The notes beneath the pieces were generated by a model, which saw nothing but the letters and a program-made list of their open reading frames with translations, was not told the origin of the DNA and did not search any database. Below, piece by piece: positions 36,970-41,269 of a DNA stretch of 64,000 nt; the first letter of the stretch is position 1, and the number at the start of each line of letters is the position of its first letter. The position numbers and the translations under genes were made by a program. The stretch spans positions 124,001 through 188,000 of the forward strand of contig JALFVN010000028.1 of NCBI GenBank assembly GCA_022787565.1. Direction: 5' to 3'. Origin of the DNA: Clostridiales bacterium (lineage in GTDB: Bacteria; Bacillota; Clostridia; Oscillospirales; Oscillospiraceae).

Positions 36970-37131
36970 GGTTACAAGTGGAGATGCCGGGTTACAGCCG
37001 TAGGCCTTCGGTTACAAACTATTGGGGGCAGTTACATTAACCCGGCCGTCGCCTAAATCGGGATTTGTGAAATACCGCTTCACGGTGTGAAATATGGCTT
37101 CGCCATGTGAAATGCCTGCGGGCGTGAGAGG
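36970..37131. repeat. Intergenic arrays with exact 20-bp periodicity
   Basis: The gap 36900-37302 has no supported gene. It carries two arrays. GGTTACA recurs at 36970, 36990 and 37010, and AGTTACA at 37030, exactly 20 bp apart. Then TGTGAAAT recurs at 37066, 37086 and 37106, again 20 bp apart, with a degenerate GTGAGAG near 37124. In the second array each unit contains a small hairpin with a TTC-type loop (ATGGC-TTC-GCCAT; CCG-CTTCA-CGG). GCCCGAAGGGC and a CGG-rich stem before TTTTTT (near 37220) follow. It resembles dispersed structured repeats of gut Clostridia. No spacer-like unique sequences, so it is not CRISPR. Confidence 0.7.
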
Positions 37132-37302: not shown

Positions 37303-38580
37303 ATGAAAATCAAGGTCGTCGACAAATCCTATGACCAGGTGCTGGCTCTGCCGCGGGAAGAACACAGAAAGCCTCTCAAGCCCTCCATCCTTTTCCGCAC
37401 GCTGCTGAAGCTCCTCTCCGCCGCGGATCTGAAGGCCACCAATTTTCAGTGCCGCAGCATCGGCATGGAGCGTCTGGGGGCCGATGAGCCCTGTCTGTTC
37501 CTGATGAATCATTCCAGCTTCATCGACCTGAAAATCGCCTCAACAATTCTCTATCCCCGTCCGTTCAACATTGTCTGTACCTCCGACGGCTTTGTGGGCA
37601 AGGCATGGCTGATGCGGCATCTGGGCTGTATTCCCACGCAGAAGTTTGTGTCCGACCTCAGTCTGGTGCGGGATATGCTCTACACCGTCAGGGAATTGCG
37701 CAGCTCTGTTCTGATGTACCCCGAGGCCAGCTACTCCTTTGACGGTACGGCCACGCCCCTGCCGGAGAGCATAGGAAAATGCGTAAAAATGCTGGGCGTG
37801 CCGGTGGTGATGATCCGCACCTATGGCGCTTTCGCCCGGGATCCGCTGTATAACGGGCTGCAGCTGCGCAAGGTGGAAGTTTCCGCGGAAATGGAATATC
37901 TCCTGTCTCCCCAGGAGATTGCCGAGGCCAGCCCGGCAGAGATCAACGCGCTGCTGGCAGAGCGCTTCTCCTTTGACAACTTCCGTGACCAGCAGAAGCG
38001 GCAGATCCGCATTACCGAGCCTTTCCGGGCCGACGGCTTGAACCGCGTTCTCTACAAATGCCCTCACTGCGGCAAGGAAGGTGCCATGACCGGTCAGGGG
38101 ATCAGCCTTCGCTGCGGCGGCTGCGGAAAAACGTATCTGCTGACCGAAACCGGTTTTCTTCAAGCCCAGGAAGGAGAAACAGAATATCCCCATATTCCGG
38201 ATTGGTACCGCTGGGAGAGAAGCTGTGTGCGGAAGGCGCTGCTGGACGGCAGCTACCGGCTGGATATTCCTGTAAGCATCTGTATGCTGGTAGACAGCAA
38301 ATCTATCTATCGGGTGGGCGAAGGGCGTCTGATCCACAGCCGGGAAGGTTTCCATCTCAGCGGCTGTGATGGAAAGCTTGATTACAGACAGAAGCCCGTT
38401 TCCTCCTACAGTCTTTACTCCGATTATTTCTGGTACGAGCTTGGCGACATGATCTGCATCGGCAACAGCAAGGTGCTTTACTACTGCTTCCCCGCCGTGC
38501 AGCAGGATATGGTGGCAAAGACCCGTCTTGCTGCCGAAGAGCTCTACAAGCTGACAAAGGCAGGCCAGCTTTCCGATTAA
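37303..38580 (+). CDS. 1-acylglycerol-3-phosphate acyltransferase-like domain fused to a zinc-ribbon module
   Basis: 425 residues. The PlsC/LPLAT domain covers about 35-200. The catalytic H-x4-D box is NHSSFID, and the second block is LMYPEASYSFDGTATPLP in the place of the usual EGTRS. It should transfer acyl chains to a lysophospholipid or similar acceptor at the membrane. Residues about 250-280 form a zinc ribbon (CPHCGKEG, then CGGCGKTY), and an unrecognised C-terminal domain of about 140 residues follows. No membrane helix is obvious. GGAGAA precedes the ATG. The acceptor and the purpose of the added domain are unknown. Confidence 0.78.
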   Translation: MKIKVVDKSYDQVLALPREEHRKPLKPSILFRTLLKLLSAADLKATNFQCRSIGMERLGADEPCLFLMNHSSFIDLKIASTILYPRPFNIVCTSDGFVGKAWLMRHLGCIPTQKFVSDLSLVRDMLYTVRELRSSVLMYPEASYSFDGTATPLPESIGKCVKMLGVPVVMIRTYGAFARDPLYNGLQLRKVEVSAEMEYLLSPQEIAEASPAEINALLAERFSFDNFRDQQKRQIRITEPFRADGLNRVLYKCPHCGKEGAMTGQGISLRCGGCGKTYLLTETGFLQAQEGETEYPHIPDWYRWERSCVRKALLDGSYRLDIPVSICMLVDSKSIYRVGEGRLIHSREGFHLSGCDGKLDYRQKPVSSYSLYSDYFWYELGDMICIGNSKVLYYCFPAVQQDMVAKTRLAAEELYKLTKAGQLSD

Positions 38581-38601: not shown

Positions 38602-39111
38602 TTATGCGCTTTTCCTGGCCTCCGCGGTCAGCGTTGCGATACCGATCAGGTTGGTGATGATCGTGATGATGTCAAAGGCAAAAGAAACATAATTGGACAG
38701 AGAAAAGTCAAAGACCAGCCAGAATATCTGGGCGACGATCAAAACCACCTTCAAGCGCCGCTCCCCTTTGATGTCCAGAAGCCAGGTGTAAATGCAGGTG
38801 GAAAGCATGGGCAGGATACCAAGCCAGCCTGCGGTATTGGCATACAGACTCAGGGCGACCAGAATAACCGTAAACAAAATCTTCAGCGGCACGGTCAGCT
38901 CCCGCTTTGCGCAGACCAGATTTCGGGCAATGCTGACGGCGGCGGAGATGGTGCCGGTGATGCCGCCCAGAACCAGATTCGCCAATCCCATGATCCCGAA
39001 CTGAACACACTGTACCGTCAGAATTTGTTTCCGCTTTTTCAGCAGGCCAATACAGGCCATCAGGATCGCCCCGATCAGGGACAGGGCGTTGCCGATAATA
39101 ATTCTGTCCAT
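38602..39111 (-). CDS. YgjV-family inner membrane protein
   Basis: 169 residues with five or six membrane helices. The N-terminal IGNALSLIGAILMACIGLLK and the VQFGIMGLANLVLGG, ISAAVSIARNLVCAKRELTV blocks match the YgjV family, whose function is unknown. The ATG at 39111 follows GGAGG by five bases, whereas the ATG at 39123 would bury that site. The leader upstream is remarkable: a consensus promoter, a branched RNA fold and an intrinsic terminator that ends just before the ribosome binding site, implying ligand- or factor-controlled expression. Confidence 0.82.
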   Translation of the reverse strand: MDRIIIGNALSLIGAILMACIGLLKKRKQILTVQCVQFGIMGLANLVLGGITGTISAAVSIARNLVCAKRELTVPLKILFTVILVALSLYANTAGWLGILPMLSTCIYTWLLDIKGERRLKVVLIVAQIFWLVFDFSLSNYVSFAFDIITIITNLIGIATLTAEARKSA

Positions 39112-39123
39112 TTTTTCCTCCAT

Positions 39124-39164
39124 AAAAAAACTGCCTGAGCCAAGCGGCGTCAGGCAGTTTTTTT
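39124..39164 (-). terminator. Intrinsic terminator in the ygjV-like leader (expression-platform candidate)
   Basis: AAAAAAACTGCCTGA and TCAGGCAGTTTTTTT form a long stem around an 11-base loop, with U-runs on either strand. On the minus strand it ends directly before the GGAGG site of the ygjV-like gene. Confidence 0.85.
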
Positions 39165-39167
39165 GAA

Positions 39168-39238
39168 ACAGCGGCCCACGGACACCGAAGGGTTCAGTGT
39201 CACTGTTAACGATTTACGGTCGTTTCTGGGGCGCCTGT
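39168..39238 (-). ncRNA. Riboswitch-like three-way-junction leader upstream of the ygjV-like gene
   Basis: On the minus strand TGGGGCGCCTGT-side and ACAGCGGCCCA-side strands (39238-39227 with 39178-39168) can close a P1 stem. Inside are a small hairpin AACGA/TCGTT (39224-39208) and a nine-bp hairpin GACACTGAA/TTCGGTGTC with loop CCC (39201-39181). A strong terminator follows within four bases of P1. A promoter lies about 30 bases upstream. Promoter, branched fold, terminator, then RBS is standard riboswitch architecture. I could not match the fold to any riboswitch class I know; the fold is by eye only. Confidence 0.5.
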
Positions 39239-39265
39239 CCAATCACAGACATAAATGACTCTGGT

Positions 39266-39294
39266 ATAGTAGCATAATGCCCGTCCATTGTCAA
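39266..39294 (-). promoter_or_regulatory. Promoter of the ygjV-like gene
   Basis: On the minus strand: TTGACA (39294-39289), a 17-bp spacer and TACTAT (39271-39266). It fixes the transcript start near 39259, so the leader is about 145 bases. Confidence 0.85.
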
Positions 39295-39787: not shown

Positions 39788-40483
39788 TTACAGCTCTTCC
39801 ACGTTTCTTACGTCCTCAATGGCGCTGATGTTCTTGACCAGGCCCTGGTCAAGCTGCCTCCTGCTGGCCTGAAGGGTCAGTACGGCGCAGTAATAATGCT
39901 CGTCCCCATCGCCGGTCACACGGGAAATCTCCAGCCCGCTGGTTTTGATGTGCCCTTCTTTCAGCACACGGATCACGTTCTCGATACAATTCGCATGGGC
40001 ATATTCGATGTACAGGTTCACATCGTGTACCTGGCGGGCAAAGCGGTACTCCAGCTTAATGAGCAGCAGCTCCGCAATGATCACGGCCACCGTGGCTGCT
40101 ATGGCACATTCAGCATAGCCCGCGCCGCAGACCAGCCCGATGACTGCCGAGGTCCAGAGACCGGCAGCAGTGGTCAGGCCCTTGACCTGCTTGCGCTTGG
40201 TGACAATGATGGTACCCGCGCCGATGAAGCCGATACCGGCAATGACCTGGGCGCCGAGACGGCCCACATCGGTATAAAAGTGCATTTCCAGGCAGAGATA
40301 CTGGCTGGTCAGGGTGGTCATGGCCGCGCCCAGACAGATGAGAATATGGGTACGGAAGCCGGCGGGACGGCGCTTGTATTCCCGCTCAATGCCAATAATG
40401 CCGCCGCAGATCACGGCCAGCACAAGGCGTACGGCCACTGCCAGAAAACTCATATCCCGGACAAAATCAAAGCATGATAACAT
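39788..40483 (-). CDS. MgtC/SapB family membrane protein (second of a tandem pair)
   Basis: 231 residues. The hydrophobic MgtC domain covers about 12-150, with the family signatures GGIIGIEREYKRRPAGFRTH, RLGAQVIAGIGFIGAGTIIV and VKGLTTAAGLWTSAVIGLVC. A C-terminal cytoplasmic ACT-like domain (about 160-231) follows. MgtC proteins affect magnesium limitation and ATP synthase in pathogens, but the role in Clostridia is unclear. GGAGG precedes the ATG and the gap to the upstream paralogue is 14 bases, so the two are one operon. Confidence 0.88.
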   Translation of the reverse strand: MLSCFDFVRDMSFLAVAVRLVLAVICGGIIGIEREYKRRPAGFRTHILICLGAAMTTLTSQYLCLEMHFYTDVGRLGAQVIAGIGFIGAGTIIVTKRKQVKGLTTAAGLWTSAVIGLVCGAGYAECAIAATVAVIIAELLLIKLEYRFARQVHDVNLYIEYAHANCIENVIRVLKEGHIKTSGLEISRVTGDGDEHYYCAVLTLQASRRQLDQGLVKNISAIEDVRNVEEL

Positions 40484-40497
40484 TGCCGCGCCTCCTT

Positions 40498-41217
40498 TCA
40501 GACCTCTTCAATGCCGATGATCCCGTCAAGCATGGAGAGCTTGGCCAGAATTTCGGTGTGCTGCTGTTTCTGGGGCAGACGCACATTGAACAGCGCGTTG
40601 ATCTGGCTCATATGGGCATTCTGTTCCTTGTCGATCTCCACATCATAGATCATGATGTTTTCGGCCTTCATCCGGGCCACAATATTGCCCAGATTTTCAA
40701 TGCTGTCCATCTCAATGTAAATATTCAGGTTTCTGGCCTTGGCCATAACCCAGTTTTCGATGTAGGGCAGCACCCGCATACACAGTTCGATAAGCAGGAA
40801 ACCCACCAGCATACACTCGTAAAAACCCGCGCCGATGGCAAGTCCCATACATGCCGAGGCCCAGAGACCCGCAGCAGTGGTCAGTCCCTTGACCTCCTGC
40901 CGTCCGGTGACGATGATGGTGCCCGCGCCCAGAAAGCCCACGCCGTTGATGACCTGCGCGCCAAAGCGGGACACGTCGGTCTTGCTGCCGTCGGCAATGG
41001 CCAGCCACTGGGTCTTCAGCATCAGATCCAGGTACTGGCTCAAAATCATGGTCAGAGCCGCGCCGAGAGCCACCAGCATATAGGTACGGAAACCGGCAGG
41101 TCTCCGTTTTCTCTCCCGCTCAAAACCCACAAGGCCGCCCATCAGCATGGCCAGAATGATCCTCAGTGCCATGGATACCATATTCAGCTGTCTCAGATAG
41201 GCAAAACAGGCTTCCAT
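40498..41217 (-). CDS. MgtC/SapB family membrane protein (first of a tandem pair)
   Basis: 239 residues. The same blocks are present: GGLVGFERERKRRPAGFRTY, RFGAQVINGVGFLGAGTIIV and VKGLTTAAGLWASACMGLAI. An ACT-like C-terminus ends in a GIIGIEEV strand. It is clearly paralogous to the next gene but has a longer loop after helix 3 (SQYLDLMLKTQWLAIADGSK). The start is ambiguous between ATG 41226 and 41217; GGGATGG spaces better with 41217. A perfect hairpin lies in its leader. Confidence 0.86.
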   Translation of the reverse strand: MEACFAYLRQLNMVSMALRIILAMLMGGLVGFERERKRRPAGFRTYMLVALGAALTMILSQYLDLMLKTQWLAIADGSKTDVSRFGAQVINGVGFLGAGTIIVTGRQEVKGLTTAAGLWASACMGLAIGAGFYECMLVGFLLIELCMRVLPYIENWVMAKARNLNIYIEMDSIENLGNIVARMKAENIMIYDVEIDKEQNAHMSQINALFNVRLPQKQQHTEILAKLSMLDGIIGIEEV

Positions 41218-41241
41218 ATCCACCATCCCAAAATAAGAATT

Positions 41242-41269
41242 CGGGGTGCCCACAGTATGCGGCACCCCG
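41242..41269 (-). promoter_or_regulatory. Hairpin in the mgtC-pair leader
   Basis: CGGGGTGCC (41242-41250) and GGCACCCCG (41261-41269) form a perfect nine-bp stem between a TATAAT-like box (41288-41283, minus strand) and the start codon. It is too small for an M-box. It may protect the 5' end or act on translation. Confidence 0.4.

Follow-up and report, generated by a model that had tools for sequence, protein, structure and literature searches.

An apparent rare relative of guanine-sensing riboswitches upstream of YgjV-family membrane protein genes

Introduction

The validated variants of the purine riboswitch scaffold illustrate how new purines come to be recognized when a small RNA pocket is re-tuned. 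The 8-oxoguanine riboswitch is tied to 8-oxoguanine deaminase in Paenibacillaceae. The accessible part of PMC8872408 attributes the preference of 2'-deoxyguanosine (2'-dG) riboswitches for nucleoside over nucleobase to C51, states that U51C alone moves a guanine riboswitch to 2'-deoxyguanosine, and has the C74 equivalent pair with the guanine edge. Within its accessible text, PMC9295807 describes xanthine-II, guanine-II and 2'-dG-III riboswitches and mentions an 8-oxoguanine class; the word YgjV does not occur in the paper. Here we describe a YgjV-linked variant that alters near-invariant letters of the scaffold in another way and is apparently a rare, undescribed relative of guanine-sensing riboswitches, as judged by sequence comparison. 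Our literature search, with most subscription papers outside its reach, found no YgjV-linked purine riboswitch variant and no paper treating ygjV together with a riboswitch, and the literature searched named no substrate for the YgjV family. Given that the uncharacterized YgjV family follows the aptamer in 8/8 cases, the identity of the ligand would hint at the function of the family.

Leader architecture

The locus lies on the minus strand of the window, by which we mean the whole 64,000-nucleotide stretch of Clostridiales DNA that was analyzed. The leader between promoter and gene is about 150 nucleotides long, and its parts are the following, all on the minus strand.

39294-39266 (-), promoter of sigma-70 type, TTGACA-17-TACTAT, 10/12 consensus, with TG before the -10 element
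39259-39199 (-), predicted aptamer, a three-stem junction of purine-riboswitch type
39259-39254 (-), P1 5' strand GTCATT, pairing with 39204-39199 AGTGAC
39253-39251 (-), J1/2 TAT, identical in 8/8 aptamers and fixed by the search pattern in six
39250-39233 (-), P2 GTCTGT/ACAGGC with the 6-nt L2 GATTGG
39232-39226 (-), J2/3 GCCCCAG; GNNCCAC in the other seven copies
39225-39207 (-), P3 with L3 CCGTAAA
39206-39205 (-), J3/1 AC, with 39205 as the equivalent of C74 in guanine riboswitches
39204-39199 (-), P1 3' strand AGTGAC
39201-39181 (-), alternative hairpin GACACTGAA/TTCGGTGTC, a rival of P1
39187-39181 (-), candidate antiterminator CGGTGTC, with its complement GACGCCG at 39151-39145 in the terminator
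39164-39124 (-), intrinsic terminator with arms 39164-39150 and 39138-39124
39121-39117 (-), ribosome binding site GGAGG, followed by the ATG start at 39111
39111-38602 (-), gene for an Imp-YgjV family membrane protein (PF10688, E 9.6e-25)

Transcription would start at about 39260, and the RNA would then open with P1. The promoter, the terminator, the ribosome binding site and the YgjV-family gene had all been picked out in an earlier sequence-only reading of this DNA, and all are present; the gene product scores 87.7 bits against PF10688 (cut-off 23.5). That reading had also proposed an Rfam search over the leader, in which no family reached its gathering score; the matches listed at E up to 10 were all far under their cut-offs, and none was a riboswitch.

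The three-stem junction appears at 70-80 nt when the growing transcript is folded by energy. The GG of L2 faces the CC of L3, as in the guanine-riboswitch plan; these letters are invariant in 8/8 aptamers, with GG pattern-fixed in six, so that the pairing has no support from covariation. The C74 equivalent is C in 8/8 aptamers, a letter that the search pattern did not fix. P3 has just 3-4 good pairs in some members. The leader as a whole (39255-39111) has a better folding energy than 200/200 dinucleotide shuffles (z -4.8). The terminator is the main source of this score: 39255-39165 alone gives z -1.35, with 21/200 shuffles equal. It is the comparison across genomes, with seven further copies, covarying stems and the same downstream gene, that sets the leader beyond chance. 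The earlier proposal of a candidate transcription-attenuating riboswitch upstream of YgjV was right.

Related aptamers and their distribution

An RNA model built from the window sequence and its three-stem structure (R1), in which the protein was not used, matched only the genome of origin among 102 genomes of the genus. When 394 genomes drawn from the order were searched, R1 retrieved three other genomes (G361, G446 and G365) at E up to 0.5. The G361 element (39.6 bits) has a promoter-like stretch on one side and, on the other, a terminator followed by a YgjV gene (L059/L115); this gene has a frame break near its start and reaches the contig end of a draft genome, and its downstream piece scores 70 bits against PF10688. 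The G446 element (L060 1579-1501 (-), 33.4 bits by R1) is an RF00167 purine riboswitch (43.2 bits). The first 67 residues of the ORF that follows it resemble the second half of Imp-YgjV, at 18.2 bits against a cut-off of 23.5. This ORF (L060 1471-857 (-)) joins a weak half-length YgjV-like segment to a part that is acetyltransferase-like by eye, and the P1 strand of its RF00167 riboswitch overlaps a terminator-like stem. The G365 match (L061, 23.5 bits) lies inside an ORF of the opposite strand and was taken as chance.

A DNA pattern, TATGNNNNNRATNGGNNNNNCGNNCCANAAA, was built from the window and G361, again without use of the protein, and it matched 48 stretches in the genome contigs of 84,980 species. 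A second model, built from the window and G361 sequences (R2), confirmed 7/48 of these at 61-92 bits, including L115 (= G361), which matches by construction. One of the other 41 stretches scored 17.6 bits, and the rest were unlisted at E up to 0.5. A YgjV gene lies directly downstream of 7/7 confirmed copies, hence of 8/8 aptamers with the window included. A YgjV profile search over all of these loci (up to 8 kb each) detected the gene in the 7 and in 0/41 of the others. A separate search for related loci, which started from the protein, gave 41 pattern stretches of its own, with 0/41 confirmed. The eight aptamers come from seven genomes, with two in G1217, and the named carriers are Mogibacterium, Lachnospiraceae and other Clostridiales. 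The pattern fixes TATG, RATNGG, CG at the P2/J2/3 border, the length of J2/3, CCA and AAA in six members. Constancy of these letters and of the J2/3 length in those six is therefore no evidence, as the search imposed it. The pattern put no constraint on P1, P3, L3, J3/1, the gene or the terminator, nor on most of P2.

A third model, built from all eight aptamers (R3), found no further member of the YgjV-linked class in 391 genomes drawn from the taxonomic class, in 177 genomes of the family of G1216 or in 235 genomes of the family of G1219. The element thus looks rare and patchy. In the taxonomic class, the two R3 matches besides the genome of origin were both RF00167 riboswitches (87-90 bits). 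In the family of G1219, R3 gave 16 further loci without YgjV downstream, 14/16 of which are RF00167; L169 and L170, both from this search, were set aside as chance. A BLASTN search with the leader in 60 relatives returned only its own place, and phage records gave nothing. A first viral pattern with fixed GCCCCAGA found 10 stretches, none matched by R1 at the pattern, which look like chance; a second viral scan gave one stretch, at just 18.3 bits by R2. When the 300 nt upstream of 24 YgjV homologues besides the window's own were read by eye, from a set in which 20/99 related genomes matched (own genome included), no similar leader was seen.

Conservation and covariation

In a MAFFT alignment of the eight aptamers, 141/142 cells of the three stems are paired (99.3%), and controls in which the alignment was slid pair only 18-42%. 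Six pairs are changed on both sides, a number reached by 12/500 shuffles, and the covariation score is 0.359 against a shuffle mean of 0.219 (0/500 shuffles reach the observed value); the count of further pair types falls below that of the shuffles (498/500 as high). These figures come from eight rows, three of them near-copies. RNAalifold, run without a given structure, returned the same three stems. A MAFFT alignment of the whole leaders is 92.5% paired, with P3 misplaced in half of the rows. The aptamer cores are 67-83% identical to that of the window, and the six complete proteins are 38-52% identical.

The sequence-only reading had drawn a different aptamer, at 39238-39168, closed by the P1 ACAGGCGCCC/GGGCCGCTGT (39238-39229 with 39177-39168). 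That P1 sits in low-energy folds of the window leader; the drawn fold belongs to the minimum-energy fold of the leader without its terminator, and similar pairs recur in longer folds. The relatives speak against it: 63.6% of 55 cells are paired in an alignment that is poor and gappy across this region, and 98/500 shuffles do as well. We therefore regard it as hardly credible that the earlier fold is the aptamer. Homologous leaders do share a conserved and covarying P1, but it is another one, formed by 39259-39254 with 39204-39199, and the stems as first drawn are not conserved.

Comparison with purine riboswitches

The YgjV class shares with guanine-I (RF00167) riboswitches the three-stem junction, recovered here by folding, by alignment and by RNAalifold, together with a J1/2 that starts with UA, an L2 that ends in GG, an L3 that starts with CC and a C right before the P1 3' strand (C74, 8/8). 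It differs in J2/3, which reads GNNCCAC (GCCCCAG in the window) instead of GUYUCUAC and lacks the U51 core. The P1 top pair is U-A in 7/8 and C-G in 1/8, with the canonical A21-U75 absent, and the 6-nt L2, the lack of an RF00167 match and YgjV as the regulated gene set the class further apart. Neither the window leader nor any of its YgjV-type relatives (0/7) reached the RF00167 gathering score. The same genome also carries a canonical RF00167 riboswitch (L031, 71.3 bits), where R1 had no match at the riboswitch and a best score of 8.1 bits elsewhere in the locus. By these model searches, the YgjV class forms its own branch of the purine scaffold, because the models retrieve RF00167 members, yet the YgjV-type copies miss RF00167 and R1 misses L031. 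The sequence-only reading had been unable to match the leader to a known class. This held insofar as no Rfam family covers the leader or its seven relatives, and the Rfam purine model misses members of this lineage; the leader is nevertheless built like the guanine/purine scaffold, apart from its changed pocket. Taken together, the leader is very probably a riboswitch on this scaffold with a redesigned pocket, a rare variant found so far only before YgjV.

Several described variants come closer in single features. Like 2'-dG-I and 2'-dG-II (nucleotide roles from PMC8872408), the YgjV class has C at 74 and probably, if J2/3 is aligned with a gap, a C at position 51. By the same partial source, the YgjV class lacks the G-C junction-proximal P1 pair and the two-base J3/1 insertion of 2'-dG-II, and its L3 of 6-7 nt is longer than that of 2'-dG-I. 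Xanthine-II, guanine-II and 2'-dG-III are likewise rare Firmicutes variants of the scaffold, and the available text of PMC9295807 predicts each of them to be an ON switch. As far as that text extends, xanthine-II combines U51G with insertions in J2/3 and J3/1, which do not occur in the YgjV class; guanine-II has a one-base insertion in J2/3, where the YgjV class is one base shorter than canonical; and 2'-dG-III precedes purine nucleoside hydrolase genes, whereas the YgjV class stands before YgjV in 8/8 cases (PMC9295807).

Purine riboswitches with a 6-nt L2 (L073, L074, L075 and L162-L167) are among the nearest to the YgjV class by model score. They share the short L2, the P2 frame and the order of parts, but have the canonical J2/3 GUYUCUAC and precede genes that read as guanine-deaminase-like. 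Three of these loci came from R2 over 400 genomes of the family, which at E up to 0.5 listed 13 genomes: the genome of origin, G361, the three with purine-type elements (L073, L074 and L075) and eight with weak loci, at or under 21 bits, that were treated as chance and dropped. RF00167 accepts L073, whose L2 also allows a 7-nt reading, and the two L075 copies, but not L074.

Some of these loci are of interest in their own right. L075 carries tandem RF00167 aptamers (1734-1657 and 1560-1501 (-)) before a guanine-deaminase-like gene, each with a 6-nt L2 and with UGC/CGC before the P1 3' strand. The L074 aptamer (1573-1501 (-)), which is purine-type and has a canonical J2/3, precedes a guanine-deaminase-like gene and stays under the Rfam gathering score. 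More broadly, short-L2 RF00167 riboswitches precede guanine-deaminase-like, FAD-oxidoreductase-like, MATE-like and other genes, as named by sequence reading. The RF00167 riboswitches at L158, L159 and L171 lie before FAD/NAD(P)-dependent oxidoreductase-like genes that are similar to one another by eye. To our knowledge, such genes are not a usual purine-riboswitch target.

Switching mechanism

Ligand bound in the junction would stabilize P1. With P1 formed, its 3' strand would be unavailable to the terminator in L086 and L098, and to a hairpin that would otherwise hide the antiterminator in the window and others. The terminator would thereby be avoided and transcription would read into ygjV, making the element probably an ON switch. 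The plainest cases are L086 and L098, where one and the same segment serves as P1 3' strand and as terminator 5' arm. This reuse of one strand makes P1 and the terminator mutually exclusive, so that ligand should favor expression; when P1 is forced, neither predicted fold retains the terminator, and that of L086 loses P2.

In five leaders (L120, L113, L094, L115 and the window), the spacer is able to pair both with the aptamer's 3' portion and with a terminator arm. Shuffled spacers equaled both pairings in 5, 3, 0, 11 and 14 of 2000 cases, respectively, and the overlap between the two best spacer segments is 1, 0, 1, 5 and -7 bases in the same order. Fully overlapping alternatives exist as GAAACTG with CAGTTTT in L120, L113 and L094, and as GACACTGAA with TTCGGTGTC in the window, where this hairpin dismantles P1 in energy folding of the longer transcript. 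For L128, a competing pairing was unsupported, with 202/2000 shuffles as good. The full-length energy fold contains P1 in 1/8 leaders (L115), and in the window the terminator persists when P1 is forced. Antitermination in the window, by the proposed pairing of 39187-39181 with 39151-39145, would thus rest on complementarity.

Binding pocket and ligand

In the YgjV class, J2/3 becomes G-N-N-C-C-A-C, one base shorter, with A52 kept and a final G in the window copy. U51 is probably replaced by C in the pocket: C occupies position 51 in 5/7 model alignments of one set and in the 10/10 shown of another, an assignment that requires a one-base gap, the gapless reading giving A at 51. For L134 and L135, it is U51 itself that the alignment gap removes. 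Our tentative preference is for a guanine nucleoside (guanosine or 2'-deoxyguanosine, for example) as the ligand, since C51 and C74 seem to occur together in the pocket; if the gapless A at 51 were correct, the C51 argument for a nucleoside would fall. Otherwise, the ligand may be another guanine-like purine. In its broadest form, which we put forward with limited confidence, the proposal is that the element is a further natural ligand class on the scaffold, beyond the eight in the available text of PMC9881172, sensing a new purine derivative and switching on YgjV as a dedicated transporter. If true, this would provide a first substrate for the YgjV family.

The element might instead have kept guanine as its ligand and be simply a divergent guanine riboswitch, its pocket changes being tolerated drift. 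This would account for the kept equivalents of C74, U22 and A23, and in guanine-II altered joining regions do not prevent tight binding of guanine (PMC9295807, accessible text). However, the short J2/3 with CCA is common to all eight aptamers (pattern-imposed in six), and the P1 top pair is pyrimidine-purine in all eight, not A-U, a feature that the pattern did not impose. In addition, YgjV is not a known guanine gene, and the canonical RF00167 riboswitch (71.3 bits) is kept in the same genome; we consider guanine itself an unlikely ligand. Alternatively, the element might sense a non-purine or an unusual purine derivative, for example an oxidized purine, a pterin-like compound or a nucleotide signal, which YgjV would export. 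The scaffold already serves eight natural classes according to the part of PMC9881172 available, and the J2/3 of the YgjV class is unlike that of any scaffold class with which we compared it by description. Such a ligand is rather less likely than not, as no specific compound is indicated and C74 suggests a guanine-like Watson-Crick edge.

The ligand for this leader is a prediction, which leaves room for a conserved leader structure that senses no metabolite and acts as a protein-binding site or a plain attenuator. With riboswitches as the nearest relatives of the same fold, and with C74 and the loops kept, this is highly improbable.

YgjV proteins and neighboring genes

All of the aligned YgjV proteins (7/7) match PF10688, and the seven riboswitch-bearing ones, with the broken L115 gene excluded, cluster with moderate support (74/88, 76% of bootstraps). 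Placed behind an ON switch, a membrane protein would be expected to deal with surplus ligand, by export or exchange, and YgjV would most likely carry either the ligand or one of its products through the membrane. Comparison of YgjV (25 sequences) with PnuC (14) gave an hhalign probability of 1.7%, leaving homology unsupported, and a search of solved structures by sequence gave nothing credible. The two halves of YgjV, aligned to each other, gave P about 0.002 and a probability of 12.6-13.9%, a hint only of an internal duplication. In the accessible portions of the respective papers, E. coli YgjV has an N-out/C-in topology (PMC4604451), a c-di-GMP screen has ygjV in one of its tables (PMC13031359), and the gene is among PlaR targets (PMC6958661); the latter two were not used for our conclusions.

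Two further features lie near the locus. A Gut-1 RNA (RF01706, 64.2 bits) occupies window positions 37029-37118 (+), upstream of an acyltransferase ORF at 37303-38580. Upstream of the leader are two adjoining MgtC-like genes (39788-40483 and 40498-41265 (-)), the first identified by a Pfam match and the second by eye.
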